Source of the DNA: a virus | IMG/VR virus record: IMGVR_UViG_3300006071_000014 | Location: 1 to 60,345 of that record | Direction: 5' to 3' (one strand) | DNA: 60,345 bases | Part shown: in pieces, positions 4,258 to 58,465 of the stretch | Numbering within the stretch: position 1 is the stretch's first letter | Layout: each line of letters begins with the position of its first letter | Notes under the pieces: model-generated | What the model saw: only the letters and a program-made list of their open reading frames with translations | Database searches by the model: none | What the model was told of the DNA's origin: nothing | Program-made: the position numbers and the translations under genes

Positions 4258-4983
4258 ATGAGTGAATTGCAAAAGATTGCAGAAGAAGCAAGGCGTGATA
4301 TGAAACCAGGCGAGCACAAATGCAAATATTGTGGTCAAGGGTTTGTGCGCGAAAGCACATTGGCAGTTCATCAATGTGAGCCAAAGCGTCGTGACTTGCA
4401 GCAAGGTGAGAAGGGCGTTATTATTGGTTTCAAAACTTGGTTGCGGTTTTATGAACTTACGCAAGGCTCTGCTAAGTTAAAGACTTATGCAGACTTTTGT
4501 AATAACAACTTTTACAATGCATTTGTAAAGTTTGGGCGACACTGTGTAGCAATTAGTGCAATCAATGTTAATCAGTTTATGGATTATGTGTTAAAGAAAC
4601 AAATCAAGATTGATAACTGGTGCAAGGATAAGGTATATGAAGAATATCTATATGGATTGTTGCGCAGTGAAAGTTCAAGTGATGCACTAGAACGTTCAAT
4701 CATAACCATGCAAGAATGGAGTGAAGAAACTGGTAATGATATTACTACATACTTTACTGAGGTAAGTTCTAATCGTTTTGTGCAACATGTTTTAAATGGT
4801 CGTGTTAGTTGTTGGGCAATCTATTGCTGTGATAATGGTATTGCTAAATTTGAAACGCTAAGTGAAGAACAAGTTACACTGCTAATGCCATGGATTGATC
4901 CTGAGTTTTGGCAACGTAAGTTGCATGATTATACTGCTGATGCAGAATTAACCAAGCATATATTGGCGCAAGCAAATTTCTAA
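4258..4983 (+). CDS. Zinc-finger-containing conserved phage protein
   Basis: A 241-residue protein. Near the N-terminus is a C2H2/C2HC-type finger, CKYCGQGFVRESTLAVHQC, after a short acidic helix. The remaining 200 residues are helical with no catalytic motif seen. The ATG at 4258 is chosen because a promoter -10 box ends six bases before it. A GTG at 4240 and an ATG at 4252 are in frame but would lie within the promoter. The protein might bind DNA or act as a phage regulator through the finger. The stop overlaps the next start (TAATG). Confidence 0.6.
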   Translation: MSELQKIAEEARRDMKPGEHKCKYCGQGFVRESTLAVHQCEPKRRDLQQGEKGVIIGFKTWLRFYELTQGSAKLKTYADFCNNNFYNAFVKFGRHCVAISAINVNQFMDYVLKKQIKIDNWCKDKVYEEYLYGLLRSESSSDALERSIITMQEWSEETGNDITTYFTEVSSNRFVQHVLNGRVSCWAIYCCDNGIAKFETLSEEQVTLLMPWIDPEFWQRKLHDYTADAELTKHILAQANF

Positions 4984-30152: not shown

Positions 30153-30465
30153 ACTATCGTTGATAGCAACTAATAGGCGGGCAAGACGAGGCTTCGACTG
30201 CCTCCTGGTCCACCACAGATACATTGGTTTCCATAGTCGGAACAAATATGGTGTAATAGGTTTTTCCGAACACCCGATGTATCTTTGATGGGCCAGCAAG
30301 GGATCGATTGACGTTGAAAGGGTTGAAGTAGATAGTAGGTTGGTTGCTTTATAGACCAAAAAAAGTAAATGCAGCGAATGATAACGCTCCATTTGAAATG
30401 CGCCTAGCGGCGTAATTCATTGGGTGGGCAACCAGCCTAGAAACAGAAATGGTTGCACTTTTTTA
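30153..30465 (+). ncRNA. ssrA: Circularly permuted two-piece tmRNA
   Basis: A tmRNA with the acceptor piece first and the tag piece second. The acceptor piece has a T arm (GAGGC/GCCTC, loop TTCGACT, 30188-30204), then CTGGTCC, discriminator A and encoded CCA (30213-30215). The tag piece starts GGGCCAG (30290-30296), which pairs with CTGGTCC over seven pairs. The third pair is G-U, the alanine identity pair. The two pieces are joined by a segment closed by AGATACAT/ATGTATCT. The tag frame begins at GCA 30371 and reads AANDNAPFEMRLAA, stop TAA at 30413. A 7-base-pair GCAACCA/TGGTTGC hairpin plus T-run ends it. It rescues stalled ribosomes. Permuted genes are known in alphaproteobacteria, some betaproteobacteria and some cyanobacteria; the AANDN start points to the first. 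Confidence 0.92.
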
Positions 30466-43718: not shown

Positions 43719-44237
43719 ATGCCATCTAAAAAAGAACTTCCACAAGGTTATTATGTTTATGCACATTTAAGACAAGGTGATTTATTGCCATATTATATTG
43801 GCAAGGGTAAAGGAAGTAGAGCATGGAATACACATGGTAGGAGACTACCAATACCATCTGATAAAAATAGAATACAAATTCTTGCTGATAATTTAACCGA
43901 AGAAGAAGCATTAGAACTTGAAAAGAAACTTATTGAGTCATATGGGCGTGAAGTCAACGGAACTGGTATTCTTTTTAATGTAACCAAAGGCGGCGAGGCG
44001 GGATTTTCTGATAACGATTACTATTACAAATATATTAGAAAGAAACATCTTATTGGCATAGAGCAAGCAAAACTTGATGGACGTTATAGGGGGAGAGAAC
44101 CTACTGCTAGAAGCCAATCTCAAAAAGTTTTGGATATGAAAGAAAAAAATTTTAATGTGCAAGAAATTATGTTAGAATGTAAAATAAGTCGTGCAAGTTA
44201 TTATAGAATATTAAAGGATAATGCGACCTTAGCTTAA
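43719..44237 (+). CDS. GIY-YIG homing endonuclease running into tRNA-CTA
   Basis: A 172-residue nuclease. The core is GYYVYAHLRQGDLLPYYIGK, then GKGSRAWNTHGRR, with EEEALELEKKLIESYGREVN. It ends in a small helix-turn-helix (NVQEIMLECKISRASYYRIL) that can bind DNA. The last five codons and stop (44223-44237) are also the first 15 bases of the tRNA that follows. This placing is typical of homing genes that target tRNA loci. Confidence 0.85.
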   Translation: MPSKKELPQGYYVYAHLRQGDLLPYYIGKGKGSRAWNTHGRRLPIPSDKNRIQILADNLTEEEALELEKKLIESYGREVNGTGILFNVTKGGEAGFSDNDYYYKYIRKKHLIGIEQAKLDGRYRGREPTARSQSQKVLDMKEKNFNVQEIMLECKISRASYYRILKDNATLA

Positions 44238-44299
44238 CGGTTAAAGCGGGTGTCTCTAAAACACCGACAATATGGGTTCAAATCCCATAGGACGCACCA
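44223..44299 (+). tRNA. tRNA with CTA anticodon (amber-reading, suppressor type)
   Basis: A full cloverleaf. The D arm is GCTT/AAGC and the T arm is ATGGG/CCCAT with loop TTCAAAT. The anticodon arm GGTGT-CTCTAAA-ACACC places T at 33 and CTA at 34-36, which reads UAG. The acceptor stem GCGACCT/AGGACGC has one A-A mismatch. Discriminator A and CCA are encoded. The body resembles phage tRNA-Arg(TCT), but a TCT register would break the anticodon stem. The amino acid is unknown. Confidence 0.8.
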
Positions 44300-47578: not shown

Positions 47579-49042
47579 ATGTTATTAGGTATCAATGCTA
47601 ACAATCATGATGCAAGTATCACTCTTGTTGATGGGTCTAATATTTTGTTTGCTGGTCACGCTGAACGGTATAGCAGAGTAAAAAACGATTCACATCTTAA
47701 TGAAGCACTAATTGATGATGCGTTACAATATGGCATACCAGATAAAATATTGTGGTATGAACAGCCGTGGAAACGAGCAGTTCGTAATCTTATAAGTGGT
47801 CAGCGTCCGTTACACTATAACTTAAACAACTATCTTAAAAAATATGGTTTGGGCAAAATACCAGTTGTAACCACACCTCACCATGGTGCGCATGCTGCTA
47901 TGGGTTATTATACCAGTAGTTTTAGTGATGCAGCCGTAGTAGTTATTGATGCTATTGGTGAATATGAATGCACTTCAATATGGCGTGGGCATGGAGATAA
48001 ACTTACTAAAGTTTGGAGTAATGTTTATCCACAAAGTATTGGGCTATTCTATAGTGCTATCACAGATTATCTTGGGTTTAAGCCCAATGAAGAAGAATAT
48101 ATTGTCATGGGCATGGCAGCATACGGCGAACCAAAGCATCTTAAAGCAATGCTTAATGAGTTCTTTGGTGCATGGTCACCGCCTCACATAGAGTTTAAGC
48201 ATAACCTACATCGTGGTATGCGTTGGTGGTCCAAGCCTAAAGATGAAAATTGGAAACCAGAAGATATTGCAGCATCTGCACAAGCCTTATATGAACAATA
48301 CTTAATGGCAATTTGTCGCTATGCTCGTGATGTGATTAGCAGTGATAATCTTGTATTGGTAGGTGGTTGCGCACTTAATTGCGTGGCAAACAGCCGATTG
48401 AAAACATTTATTGGGTTTAGCAAAATATGGGTGCCACCAAATCCTGGCGATAGTGGTTTAAGTTTAGGTGCAATTACCTATCATACCAAGAAGCATGTGA
48501 ATCTGAACCATGCGTTTCTTGGTTATAACATTGATCGTAAGGTAGATGTTCGTGCTGTTGTTGATGCGTTAGAAGCAGGTCAAGTTGTAGGTATTGCCAA
48601 TGGTCGTGCAGAGTTTGGTCCGCGTGCGTTGGGCAATCGTTCGCTACTTGCAGACCCTCGTGGTGACGATGTAAAAAACCGTGTAAATGCGATTAAGAAA
48701 CGTGAGCCATTTCGTCCGTTTGCTCCTATTATACTAAAAAGTTTCTTTAGCGATTACTTTTATAGTAAGATGCGAGTAAATCATGATTATATGCAATGGG
48801 CAGATGCGTGTCTATCACCTGGCACTTTTCCAGCAATCTGTCATGTAGATGGAACCTCTCGTGTTCAAACAATTGACCAACCTACGCCAAGTATTACATA
48901 CAAAATATTAGAAGCATGGTATGCAAGAACTCGTTGTCCAATGTTGCTTAACACTAGTCTTAATATTAAAGGCGAGCCATTAGTGAATACATGGGCAGAT
49001 GCTCAACGATTTAGCGAATTACATAATATTACGGTGTTCTAA
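47579..49042 (+). CDS. Carbamoyltransferase (NodU/TobZ family)
   Basis: A 487-residue enzyme that transfers a carbamoyl group from carbamoyl phosphate, usually to sugars or antibiotics. The N-terminal ASKHA-type domain has LLGINANNHDASITLVDGSN, then HHGAHAAMGYYTSSFSDAAV and VVIDAIGEYECTSIW. YIVMGMAAYGEPK follows, then VLVGGCALNCVANSRL. The C-terminal part has GRAEFGPRALGNRSLLADPR and TSLNIKGEPLVNTW. All are family hallmarks. It may modify a surface sugar. It overlaps the next SGNH-like gene by one base. Confidence 0.92.
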   Translation: MLLGINANNHDASITLVDGSNILFAGHAERYSRVKNDSHLNEALIDDALQYGIPDKILWYEQPWKRAVRNLISGQRPLHYNLNNYLKKYGLGKIPVVTTPHHGAHAAMGYYTSSFSDAAVVVIDAIGEYECTSIWRGHGDKLTKVWSNVYPQSIGLFYSAITDYLGFKPNEEEYIVMGMAAYGEPKHLKAMLNEFFGAWSPPHIEFKHNLHRGMRWWSKPKDENWKPEDIAASAQALYEQYLMAICRYARDVISSDNLVLVGGCALNCVANSRLKTFIGFSKIWVPPNPGDSGLSLGAITYHTKKHVNLNHAFLGYNIDRKVDVRAVVDALEAGQVVGIANGRAEFGPRALGNRSLLADPRGDDVKNRVNAIKKREPFRPFAPIILKSFFSDYFYSKMRVNHDYMQWADACLSPGTFPAICHVDGTSRVQTIDQPTPSITYKILEAWYARTRCPMLLNTSLNIKGEPLVNTWADAQRFSELHNITVF

Positions 49043-53986: not shown

Positions 53987-54436
53987 ATGTGTAAAATTAG
54001 CGCAATTTGTGTATTTTTAATGACAGTTCCTACACTTGCACACGCAAGTGACATGACATTTGCATTTAAAAACCCGCAATTTAGTGGTGATGGATTCTCT
54101 AGTCATGTATTGACTATTGAAAACGAGGAATATACTCGTCGTCAATCTCTTGCTGCTCAGAAAAAAGCAGATGCAGATGCAGCCGCAGCAGCGGCTAGTA
54201 ACACCAATTTAAATAAATTTCTCAACAATCTGGAAAGCCGCATCTACGCACAGTTAAGTTTGCAACTTAGCAATGCTATGTTTAGCGATGGATCAACTAC
54301 TGGAACTATGCAATTTGAAGGCAGCACTATCTCTTGGATCAAGGATAGCACTGCTCAGACTATCGCCTTAACGGTAATTGATGCTACTGGCAATCGTACA
54401 GATATCACAGTTCCAATAGGGAGTTTCAAGTTCTAA
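53987..54436 (+). CDS. csgF: CsgF-like curli nucleation/secretion factor
   Basis: A 149-residue exported protein. The signal peptide is MCKISAICVFLMTVPTLAHA. It is followed by SDMTFAFKNPQFSGDGFSSH, which matches the MTFQFRNPNFGGN start of CsgF. That segment inserts into the CsgG pore in Escherichia coli. A short Ala-rich coil precedes the C-terminal half, whose NNLESRIYAQLSLQLSNAMF and SWIKDSTAQTIALTVIDATG fit the FTQAIQSQIL...VTDRKTGQT pattern of CsgF. It is first in the operon and coupled to csgG (TAATG). Confidence 0.85.
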   Translation: MCKISAICVFLMTVPTLAHASDMTFAFKNPQFSGDGFSSHVLTIENEEYTRRQSLAAQKKADADAAAAAASNTNLNKFLNNLESRIYAQLSLQLSNAMFSDGSTTGTMQFEGSTISWIKDSTAQTIALTVIDATGNRTDITVPIGSFKF

Positions 54437-55257
54437 TGTATAAATTTATCGTATCAATGATTATAACCACGTTACTGGCAGCATGTAGCACTGTGCAGCC
54501 ATATGAAGCAAAAGTACCAACAGCAGCAAGCAATATGCCGCAGAAGGTAACAAAGAGTTATTATAATGAATTAGCAAATATGCCACCACCAGATGGGCAA
54601 CCAATTACTATTGCTATGTATGGGTTTGGTGATAAAACTGGACAGCGTAAAGAAAACGATAAGTTTTCTGTGTTAAGCAGTGCTGTCACACAAGGCGGAG
54701 AAGTATTTCTTATTAAGGCGTTGCAAGATGCAGGTCATAGTAAATGGTTCCAAGTTGTAGAACGTGTTGGCTTAGATGATCTTATTAAAGAGCGTCAATT
54801 AATTCGCAACCAACGTGAAACCTATGAAGGAAAAGATGCTAAGCCGTTATCACCAATGCTTATTGCTGGTGTTATGGTGGAGGGTGGTATCGTAGGTTAC
54901 GATACTAATGTACAAAGTGGTGGCAATGGCGCTGCCATGTTAGGAATAGGCGTAAATCAACAATATAGAACCGACGAGGTTACTGTGATTGTAAGATTGA
55001 TAAGTGTTCATACTGGTGAAGTATTAATCTCTGCTGGTGCCACAAAAACAATCTTAAGCACAGGCGGAAGTGGCACAGTGGTCACTTTTTTAGACCAGAG
55101 CACGATGAGTTTACAAGTCGAATCTGGTGCAAATGTCAACGAACCCACCACATATGCCGTGCGTCTGGCAACAGAAGCAGCGGTTGTGGATATGATCAAA
55201 CAGGGTGTTCAAAAGAATTTGTGGAGTTACGCGACTCTTAAAAAGAAGGCGTCGTAA
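54436..55257 (+). CDS. csgG: CsgG-like curli secretion channel lipoprotein
   Basis: A 273-residue lipoprotein that forms the outer-membrane curli channel. The lipobox is LLAACS with Cys17. The hallmark segments are ITIAMYGFGDKTGQRKENDK, AVTQGGEVFLIKALQDAGHS, WFQVVERVGLDDLIKERQLI, and IAGVMVEGGIVGYDTNVQSG, then VTVIVRLISVHTGEVLISAG. These follow Escherichia coli CsgG closely in order and length. It is coupled to csgF and precedes the first curlin. A phage-encoded channel could secrete curlin or conduct solutes across the host outer membrane. Confidence 0.93.
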   Translation: MYKFIVSMIITTLLAACSTVQPYEAKVPTAASNMPQKVTKSYYNELANMPPPDGQPITIAMYGFGDKTGQRKENDKFSVLSSAVTQGGEVFLIKALQDAGHSKWFQVVERVGLDDLIKERQLIRNQRETYEGKDAKPLSPMLIAGVMVEGGIVGYDTNVQSGGNGAAMLGIGVNQQYRTDEVTVIVRLISVHTGEVLISAGATKTILSTGGSGTVVTFLDQSTMSLQVESGANVNEPTTYAVRLATEAAVVDMIKQGVQKNLWSYATLKKKAS

Positions 55258-55279
55258 AACTCCTTAAAGGAGTAGGCAG

Positions 55280-55966
55280 TTGAAAAACTTTATGAAAGCC
55301 GCAATTAGTATTGTGGGTATTATGCTGGCAAGTCAAAGTTTTGCTGGTACGATTAACAATGTTTATATCGACCAGGTTGGTAGCGGAAGCACTATCACAC
55401 TAAATCAACAAGGGTCAAATAACGAAATTGGTAACGACACTACCGCAACTACCTTACACGGAAATGGACAAACAGTAAGCATTTCACAAGTTGGTAGTAA
55501 TAATACGCATGTTATCAATGTCCAAGGAACCAATACCACTTTAAATAGTGTTGTAACTGGTGATAATAATAATACAACGGTTGCGTGTGGCGCTGCTCCA
55601 AGCAGCAGTTGTACTGATACTGCTATTACCGCTAATGTCACAGGTAATACCAACAACACAAATATTACTGCTGGTTCTAAAAGCACAATTACTGCAGTTG
55701 TTGCTGGCAGCACTAACAATACTACAATTAACAGCACCACTACAAACCTAATGGGCGCTGGCGTTGATGTCAAAGAAACTGGCGATACAAACGTGGTAAA
55801 TATAAGTCAGAACGGACCAGCAGGTGCTAATGGCTTTGTGTCAAAAGTTGAAGTAACTGGTGCGAGCAACAACGTGGCGGTGACTCAAAGTGGCACAACT
55901 GATAGCACAGTCAATATTAAGAGCACTGGTTCTAATAACAGTATTTCTGTTACCAGCGGCAACTAA
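55280..55966 (+). CDS. Curlin-like amyloid subunit
   Basis: A 228-residue exported protein from a TTG start 8 bases after AAAGGAG. The signal peptide is KNFMKAAISIVGIMLASQSF plus AG. Curlin repeats follow: VYIDQVGSGSTITLNQQGSN, QTVSISQVGSNNTHVINVQG, NVVNISQNGPAGAN and NVAVTQSGTTDSTVNIK. The spaced Gln, Gly and Asn form the strand-loop-strand of CsgA/CsgB. The last 77 bases overlap the FecR gene in another frame. It would be the secreted substrate of CsgG. Confidence 0.85.
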   Translation: MKNFMKAAISIVGIMLASQSFAGTINNVYIDQVGSGSTITLNQQGSNNEIGNDTTATTLHGNGQTVSISQVGSNNTHVINVQGTNTTLNSVVTGDNNNTTVACGAAPSSSCTDTAITANVTGNTNNTNITAGSKSTITAVVAGSTNNTTINSTTTNLMGAGVDVKETGDTNVVNISQNGPAGANGFVSKVEVTGASNNVAVTQSGTTDSTVNIKSTGSNNSISVTSGN

Positions 55967-57002
55967 TGCTGCTATCGGAACTGTTACTGAACAAACAGGT
56001 CCAACAGAAATACAACGTGAAAAACAAAGCATACCAAGTAATATAAACAGCGGCGTCGAAATGAATGACGCCGTTGTTACTGCTAAAGCAAGAGTTGGTA
56101 TTACATTTGAAGATGATACCAAGGTTGAAATAACCGAACAAAGCAAACTTGTTATTGATGATTTCGTATATGATCCTAAAAATAGTGATGCTGGCAAATT
56201 AGGACTTAAGGTTGCTATCGGAACTGCTCGTTATGCTAGCGGTCAAATTGCCAAAGATAATCCACAAAGTGTGAAGATTGAAACTCCTACTGCTACAATT
56301 GGTGTGCGTGGAACAGATTTTAGTATGACCGTTGATGAATTAGGTCGCAGTCTTATTGTGCTGTTGCCAAGTTGTCCAGTAGGTTATAAGAATATTGATA
56401 AAGACTGCATTACTGGCAAGATTGATGTGACTACCGACATGGGAACAGTGCATCTTGACAAACCATTTCAGGCAACTTCTACAAGTGCCAAAGAACAAAA
56501 TCCAACCAAGCCTGTTATTCTTAACTTAAGCACAGAACAAATCAATAATATGCTTATCCTACAACCGCCTAAGAAAGCAGCAGAAGAACAAACTACAACA
56601 AAAACTGCACTTGATGTTAATTTTCTTGATAAAGATTTCTTAAAGTTTGATGAATTGGATATAAATTATCTAACAGCATTTGACAAATTAAGTGTTAATA
56701 ATCTTGATGTTGTGTTCTTGGCTAATATGTTAGACCTTGCCAATGCTTCGTTACTAGCAAGTATGTTAGGTGGTGAAAACCAAATGCTGCCACAATATGC
56801 CCCAAACAAACAGGCAGGATTGAAGTATGTCAAGATAGATTCTTCACTCACACTATATCGTCAAGGCGGTAACAGTTATACTCAATTGACTGTAGATAAG
56901 GATAGTCCAACTACTCTTAACCTAAATCAGGATGGGGTAAATATGACACAGCATGTTCAACATCCTGGTGGCAGCGTAATAACCATCACTCAAGGAAATT
57001 AA
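55890..57002 (+). CDS. FecR-domain protein with curlin-like C-terminus
   Basis: A 370-residue protein from a GTG start inside the curlin gene. The first 27 residues (AQSILRALVLITVFLLPAAT) form a signal peptide. The FecR domain follows: VTEQTGPTEIQREKQSIPSN, ARVGITFEDDTKVEITEQSK and TATIGVRGTDFSMTVDE. The C-terminal end (SLTLYRQGGNSYTQLTVDKD, TTLNLNQDGVNMTQ, SVITITQGN) has the same Gln-Gly-Asn curlin pattern. It may bind peptidoglycan or envelope and nucleate or anchor the fibre. It is followed after one base by the second curlin. Confidence 0.7.
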   Translation: MAQLIAQSILRALVLITVFLLPAATNAAIGTVTEQTGPTEIQREKQSIPSNINSGVEMNDAVVTAKARVGITFEDDTKVEITEQSKLVIDDFVYDPKNSDAGKLGLKVAIGTARYASGQIAKDNPQSVKIETPTATIGVRGTDFSMTVDELGRSLIVLLPSCPVGYKNIDKDCITGKIDVTTDMGTVHLDKPFQATSTSAKEQNPTKPVILNLSTEQINNMLILQPPKKAAEEQTTTKTALDVNFLDKDFLKFDELDINYLTAFDKLSVNNLDVVFLANMLDLANASLLASMLGGENQMLPQYAPNKQAGLKYVKIDSSLTLYRQGGNSYTQLTVDKDSPTTLNLNQDGVNMTQHVQHPGGSVITITQGN

Positions 57003-57003
57003 T

Positions 57004-57591
57004 ATGAAACGTTTGTTATTCTTACTATGGATTACACCCGTTGCTGCACAAAGTTTAAGTGCTACTAGTAGCGGACCTGGCTTATCCATGCCAACGCTAC
57101 CACGTGGATCATCTGTATATATTGACCAAGTTGGTAATGGTAATAATATATTTGTAGAACAAGTTACAGGTGGCACACCACAGGCAACCATTCTTAATCA
57201 AGGTGATAACAATAATCTAACCATCGTGCAAGAGGGTAGCGGTGATCATCAGGCATTTATAGGAACGCCACCAACTGGCATGGGATTGAATGCAACACTG
57301 AATACTAATACAAGTGCTGCTAACAATAACAATAATACACTTACTATCTTACAAAATGGTAGTGGAAATCATACTGCTGCTATTAACTTAGATGCTTCCA
57401 CATCAAATAATAATAACATTGCCACCATTACCCAAACTGGCGATGCTAATAAGAATTTTACTCTTAATCTAAGTGGAAGCGGAATTGGTGCAACCGTATT
57501 GCAAGATAATCCATTAACGCCTGATAGTGGAAGCATGAGCATACAATGTTTAACGCCGCCTTGTTCTGGATACAGTTACACAAAACATTAA
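57004..57591 (+). CDS. Second curlin-like protein (CsgB-like)
   Basis: A 195-residue protein with signal peptide MKRLLFLLWITPVAAQS. Curlin repeats include SSVYIDQVGNGNNIFVEQV, ATILNQGDNNNLTIVQEGSG, NTLTILQNGSGNHTAAI and NNIATITQTGDANKNFTL. The tail has two Cys (CLTPPC) and a Tyr-rich end, different from the first curlin. It might act as the nucleator or minor subunit. It is the last gene of the curli operon and is followed by a TTAAATA late-type box. Confidence 0.85.
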   Translation: MKRLLFLLWITPVAAQSLSATSSGPGLSMPTLPRGSSVYIDQVGNGNNIFVEQVTGGTPQATILNQGDNNNLTIVQEGSGDHQAFIGTPPTGMGLNATLNTNTSAANNNNNTLTILQNGSGNHTAAINLDASTSNNNNIATITQTGDANKNFTLNLSGSGIGATVLQDNPLTPDSGSMSIQCLTPPCSGYSYTKH

Positions 57592-58300: not shown

Positions 58301-58320
58301 AATATATGTTATTATAAGAA

Positions 58321-58465
58321 TAAGTGCGGCAGCGTGGATAGGACACGCATCCCTGTGATAGGGCGAAATGGAAATACGATGTAACTAGCGAGCGAGGGAA
58401 GATAAGCCCTGCGGCTCTTATAATACCAATCTAATTGTAGGTATAAATCCTACCCGCACCTTTTT
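58321..58465 (+). ncRNA. Structured RNA of unknown class, tRNA-like ends
   Basis: No open frame covers this gap. GTGCGG (58324-58329) pairs with CCGCAC (58454-58459), followed by TTTTT. Inside are GCGTG/CACGC like a D arm, CCCT/AGGG, GAGC/GCTC with inner AGGG/CCCT, and GTAGG-TATAAAT-CCTAC like a T arm. The anticodon-like arm has only four pairs and a five-base loop, so it is not a normal tRNA. Upstream TATTATAAGA (58310-58319) can also pair with TCTTATAATA (58416-58425), so a switch in fold is possible. Confidence 0.6.

Follow-up and report, generated by a model that had tools for sequence, protein, structure and literature searches.

The stable RNAs C and D of phage T4 and the Bacillus cereus pseudo-tRNA tRNA-Other are the nearest known kinds to the phage RNA described here. 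RNAs C and D (species 1, 139 nt; species 2, 119 nt) resemble it in being phage-encoded, small and of similar length; they lie beside tRNA genes, and the 3' end of RNA C is a tRNA-like T arm (GGGTTCGAATCCC). They have long been known, and we are aware of no function assigned to them. The T4 region (L082) gave no match at E 10 to R1, our covariance model of the present family, and the GGRAAUA/AAUACC variable-arm motif of that family was not seen there. According to the sections of the source consulted here, tRNA-Other is a tRNA-like RNA that is non-functional in translation and has been proposed as a tRNA-like element of a regulatory RNA, illustrating that regulatory effects outside translation are possible for such an RNA (PMC3399842). 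As those sections present it, tRNA-Other differs from the phage RNA in being bacterial, in having about tRNA length (74-bp RT-PCR product) and a Trp anticodon, and in flanking a genomic island, and they describe no long variable-arm domain; the modelled structure of the phage RNA is nevertheless compatible with a pseudo-tRNA of this type.

Among ordinary tRNAs, those of class II (tRNA-Leu, tRNA-Ser and tRNA-Sec) have in common with the phage RNA a 7/5 acceptor–T stack, a long variable arm and a D arm of the Leu type (GCG...CGC), whereas the phage RNA has an unusable anticodon arm, a variable arm of ~63 nt and, in the window family, no encoded CCA. Mimicry of the tRNA elbow has been reviewed (PMC4810234), and by analogy with viral tRNA-like structures and other elbow mimics the phage RNA might also recruit tRNA-handling factors. 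Viral tRNA-like structures stand at the 3' end of RNA genomes, whereas the RNA described here is a free-standing gene of DNA phages.

The window, by which we mean the whole stretch of 60,345 nucleotides analysed, is a 60-kb virus record (IMG/VR IMGVR_UViG_3300006071_000014) that encodes DnaB, a ribonucleotide reductase, a phage lysozyme and a nodulation-type carbamoyltransferase, the last a NolO-type gene at 47579–49042 (+; PHROG 1601, E 1.1e-97). A curli-like locus lies at 54436–57591 (+), encoding a CsgG family protein (E 6.6e-46) together with a FecR-domain protein and two others that carry curlin-like repeats; genes resembling this locus adjoin the RNA in related contigs too. At 30155–30415 (+) we found a permuted, two-piece type tmRNA gene (Rfam RF04321, 81 bits), which also scores 42.8 bits against the alphaproteobacterial tmRNA model and whose apparent tag ends ...ANDNAPFEMRLAA-stop, hinting at an alphaproteobacterial host or gene source. 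The window has three true tRNA genes, all with encoded CCA. A tRNA with a CTA (amber) anticodon and encoded CCA lies at 44223–44299 (+), called tRNA-Pyl by ARAGORN. TAG is rare as a stop codon, terminating 2 of 54 likely genes in the window, which makes an amber suppressor role for this tRNA plausible.

Architecture of the RNA

The RNA at 58323–58460 (+) is intergenic, on the same strand as the neighbouring coding genes, and has the layout of a class-II (Leu/Ser-like) tRNA: a 7-bp acceptor stem, a D arm, a short hairpin at the anticodon position, a variable arm of ~63 nt and a T arm. Its elements are as follows.

58310–58319, +: upstream TATTATAAGA, complementary to 58416–58425; only in the window lineage
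58323–58329, +: acceptor-like stem, 5' strand AGUGCGG, pairing with 58454–58460
58332–58348, +: D-like arm, GCGUG/CACGC enclosing GAUAGGA; tRNA-Leu-type core of 3 bp (GCG/CGC), GG in the loop
58351–58363, +: anticodon-position hairpin in predicted folds, CCC-UGUGAUA-GGG or alternatively CCCUG-UGA-UAGGG
58368–58430, +: long variable arm, closed by AUGG (58368–58371) with CCA-AU (58426–58430)
58372–58376, +: internal loop, 5' half AAAUA (GG-RAAUA in the family); AAUA invariant in 11 of 11 members, several distant ones having been found by this same variable-arm motif
58395–58410, +: apical hairpin of the variable arm, AGGG-AAGAUAAG-CCCU, from alignment and folds
58422–58425, +: internal loop, 3' half AAUA (AAUA-CC in the family); invariant in 11 of 11, with the same reservation
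58437–58453, +: T-like arm, GUAGG-UAUAAAU-CCUAC; U54 and A58 retained, TTC replaced by UAU
58454–58460, +: acceptor-like stem, 3' strand CCGCACC; CCA not encoded
58461–58465, +: T-run 3' of the acceptor stem

The first-pass annotation of this DNA had described a closing stem followed by a T-run, D-like and T-like arms and an extra long domain between the anticodon-position hairpin and the T-like arm, and each of these was located where it had been placed. Terminator prediction reported no intrinsic terminator at the T-run. The minimum free-energy fold is a multibranch structure with a 6-bp closing stem and D-like, anticodon-position, long central and T-like hairpins. Its folding energy is unremarkable (z -1.08; 31 of 200 shuffles were equally stable). 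Thermodynamic stability by itself cannot set this RNA apart from chance, and the case rests on comparison.

Near homologues and the wider family

Related contigs were retrieved via the phosphoesterase gene neighbouring the RNA. The copies in L002 and L004 are identical to that in the window, those in L005 and L006/L007 are 81% and 75% identical, respectively, and L003 has a partial match at 89%; a further homologue, in L054, was picked up by a T-arm scan. With the window RNA, of which L002 and L004 hold identical copies, the four diverged homologues (L003, L005, L007 and L054) make five distinct sequences, which can be aligned from end to end. The homologues have an acceptor stem of 7 bp, whose outermost pair is A-C in the window, A-U in L007 and G-C in L005, L003 and L054. 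The T-like arm has the same sequence in all five members of the window family, and the apical loop of the variable arm is similar to the UGAUAA/UGUUAA loops of L054, L098, L003, L005 and L007, while the anticodon-position hairpin varies in loop size and sequence in the alignment. Among more remote phages of this lineage, the window-family covariance model detected another, diverged copy, with the D-arm sequence GCAGCGTGG..GGACATGC retained. In many relatives of the phage no copy was detectable, the records searched being fragments.

Search patterns built from the variable-arm internal loop plus the T arm yielded, among many unrelated coding matches, six tRNA-like RNAs: L053, L098, L106, L132, L193 and L092, the last being the locus also held in L169 (Oceanobacillus profundus; L169 7029–7157, -). 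The internal loop GG-RAAUA/AAUA-CC occurs in 11 of 11 members, a count to be read with the fact that five of the six distant members (L098, L092, L132, L193 and L106) were found by patterns containing this motif, and only L053 and the near-family L054 via the T arm alone. L053, which encodes a 3' CCA, had been seen earlier in the T-arm-only scan. R1, trained only on the five window-family sequences, was run against 556 kb that included ordinary tRNAs, and its top ranks were L106 (47.7 bits), L053 (42.7), L098 (41.3), L132 (36.9) and L092/L169 (35.4); L193 scored 24.7 bits, no better than ordinary tRNAs. At E 0.1, and with the best 128 candidates scored in each genome, the L092 RNA was the sole match in the 4.8-Mb Oceanobacillus genome and the L132 RNA the sole match in a 3.6-Mb Pseudomonadota genome.

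The stems of this set covary. In a MAFFT alignment of the 11 sequences, which was not structure-fitted, 97.6% of cells in the acceptor, D and T stems hold standard pairs and 10 pairs have changed on both sides, a result matched by 0 of 500 shuffles that take no account of kinship among members; slid-register controls were only 38–50% paired. Both-side changes affect 6 of 7 acceptor pairs (96% of cells paired), and 2 of the 3 core pairs of the D arm and 2 of the 5 pairs of the T stem covary across the same 11 members. The closing stem of the variable arm is 91% paired, with 4 of 6 pairs changed on both sides and 18 double-changed cells (0 of 500 shuffles, again blind to kinship, with the segments anchored on the motif). 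A descriptor of the whole architecture matched exactly once in the window and 0 times in 18.1 Mb of Markov-random sequence of equal composition. Judged from the sequence comparison, 58323–58460 probably encodes a conserved, non-coding RNA.

L132, at 38 bits, is the only member to pass the Rfam tRNA threshold, which ties the series to tRNA; L106 scores 16.4 bits, under the 29-bit cut-off. L106, L132 and L193 are close to tRNA-Leu, and their internal loop reads GG-RAA-UAA/GAA-UA-CC. The UAA/GAN internal-loop motif consists of UAA opposite GAN between two helices; the window family lacks the full motif. A class-II tRNA is recognisable in the long variable arm, in the T arm and in the D arm, which reads GCG...CGC and has GG in its loop. 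The suggestion that the RNA is a tRNA mimic thus gains support from its tRNA-like covarying arms and from the gradation into clear tRNA-Leu-like members, and the initial observation as a whole is borne out by homologue conservation and covariation, although the folding energy is ordinary.

Most motif-pattern matches were discarded as coding sequence or 16S rRNA, among them L152, which appears to hold a similar 16S element (GGGAAUAAC..GCUAAUACC). The best phage-record match to the RNA, in Vibrio phage 1.084.O, lies inside a coding sequence and was dismissed, and L131, which resembles an archaeal tRNA gene that may contain an intron, was left out of the family. BLAST of the L092, L106 and L098 RNAs against phage records either gave no match or hit only the T-arm portions of tRNAs or of tRNA-like genes.

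Several other RNAs came to light in the same records. An unannotated tRNA-like RNA that ARAGORN misses recurs at L055 6642–6735 (-) and in L057, L064 and L079, with T arm GTAGGTGCAAATCCTAC and stem TGTGC..GCACA. Another, of roughly 140 nt with T arm GTAGGTGAAAATCCTAC, lies at L058 9488–9626 (+) and L073 about 4580–4722 (+), within phage tRNA clusters between tRNA-Pro and tRNA-His, a position that recalls T4 RNAs C and D. ARAGORN also fails to call further tRNA-Leu-like RNAs at L060 3525–3663 (-) and L065 2673–2785 (-), which have long inserts and unusual anticodon regions. Brevundimonas phage Kabachok (L204) has an unannotated tRNA-like sequence at 1449–1529, with a complete acceptor stem and a GCCA 3' end, adjoining annotated tRNAs.

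Alternative readings

The RNA could be a tRNA-Leu gene in decay, a functionless pseudogene whose variable region has taken up a random insertion. The existence of tRNA-Leu-like members (L106 and L132), the degenerate anticodon arms of all members and the mismatches in some window-family stems would fit such decay. However, compensatory changes maintain the stems, a T-arm region of ~27 nt is identical in five members despite divergence of up to 25% in the rest of their sequence, and unrelated phages share the same internal loop, so that we regard this reading as unlikely.

If the RNA were a decoy for anticodon nucleases, or for other phage defences that attack tRNAs, it would compete for the enzyme and, having no anticodon loop, would not itself be inactivated. 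The tRNA-like body without a cleavable anticodon loop suits this role, and the L098 copy lies 15 nt after an RNA ligase gene; T4 RNA ligases repair cut tRNAs. An RNA ligase was found in none of eight other records searched, several of them fragments, and since the neighbourhood was seen in the L098 record only, it was rejected as a common theme. Moreover, many anticodon nucleases read the anticodon arm, the very part absent here, and we consider a decoy role quite improbable.

The RNA of the window ends 21 nt before the downstream ATG, as might a cis-acting leader (a riboswitch, T-box-like element or switch) controlling the next gene, and the first-pass annotation had proposed a conformational switch based on competing pairing with upstream bases. 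That pairing is present in the window, where 58310–58319 and 58416–58425 form 10 bp, a length reached by 0 of 300 mononucleotide shuffles. Only the window and the relatives identical to it have this pairing, however; the upstream complement in homologues is just 4–6 bp, at chance level, and the predicted fold is unchanged when the upstream bases are included, so the switch itself found no support. The genes adjoining the RNA also vary among homologues (unknown ORFs, a 77-aa ORF, a phosphoesterase or a glycosyltransferase). On the 3' side there is a phosphoesterase in L005, an unrelated 625-aa ORF in L007, and short unknown ORFs in the window and L003 between which significant similarity was not found. 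This lack of conservation downstream makes a cis riboswitch unlikely, and an Rfam scan of the RNA returned no family, riboswitches included, at gathering score or at E 10. A cis-acting leader of any kind is very improbable.

Ordinary decoding is excluded because a normal anticodon arm (a 5-bp stem with a 7-nt loop and U33) is found in 0 of 11 members, by sequence and by fold; the loops are of 3 or 5 nt on closed hairpins, or of 8 nt in L132. CCA is missing from the RNA gene, unlike the three tRNA genes of the window; CCA might be added post-transcriptionally, but this contrast with the tRNA genes, together with the unusable anticodon arm, argues against decoding. The window family also has C8 in place of U8 and UAU in place of TTC in the T loop, and having lost U8, TTC and encoded CCA it may have ceased to be treated as a tRNA. 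Rfam scans of the RNA found no group I or II intron and no tmRNA, the tmRNA of the window sitting elsewhere. Despite its overall cloverleaf and the long variable arms natural to class-II tRNAs (PMC7609411), a functional tRNA that still decodes, with an intron or a variable arm of unusual length, is thus extremely unlikely, since ARAGORN did not call the RNA even with intron options included and removal of the extra domain restores no 7-nt loop with U33.

Proposed role

We favour, as rather probable, a phage RNA that derives from a class-II (leucine/serine-type) tRNA, does not decode, and acts as a mimic of, or platform for, a tRNA-binding factor. Its structure, its conservation, the absence of a decoding loop and its kinship to tRNA-Leu-like RNAs are observed; it is probably also expressed, processed and used as such a mimic or platform. 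As a sense-strand RNA between protein genes, it would form part of a polycistronic transcript, from which tRNA-processing nucleases would probably excise it by reading the 12-bp acceptor/T-arm stack, with RNase P cutting at about 58322/58323. The excised RNA would persist, stable and folded, and its short closed anticodon-position hairpin would preclude ordinary decoding. Most likely, a host or phage tRNA-binding factor would then treat it as a tRNA; this could be a synthetase of the Leu/Ser type, an enzyme of tRNA processing or a defence enzyme that cleaves tRNAs, and the long variable arm with its conserved internal loop would offer a second site for binding or docking. Synthetases for class-II tRNAs are plausible partners, since bacterial LeuRS can dispense with the anticodon and SerRS reads the long variable arm and the discriminator. 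Recognition of these two features by SerRS has been described (PMC7609411).

In the open-access literature searched, outside which most subscription journals fall, no description of this RNA family was found. More tentatively, the members may represent an unrecognised family of phage tRNA look-alikes that has spread among unrelated phages and regions resembling prophages. In this family a tRNA-Leu body would have become a scaffold that does not decode, that bears a conserved receptor loop in its variable arm and that serves in host takeover or counter-defence. Such RNAs escape both tRNA finders and Rfam, and a recurring family with a defined conserved motif and a covariance model is a target for deletion, expression and pull-down.
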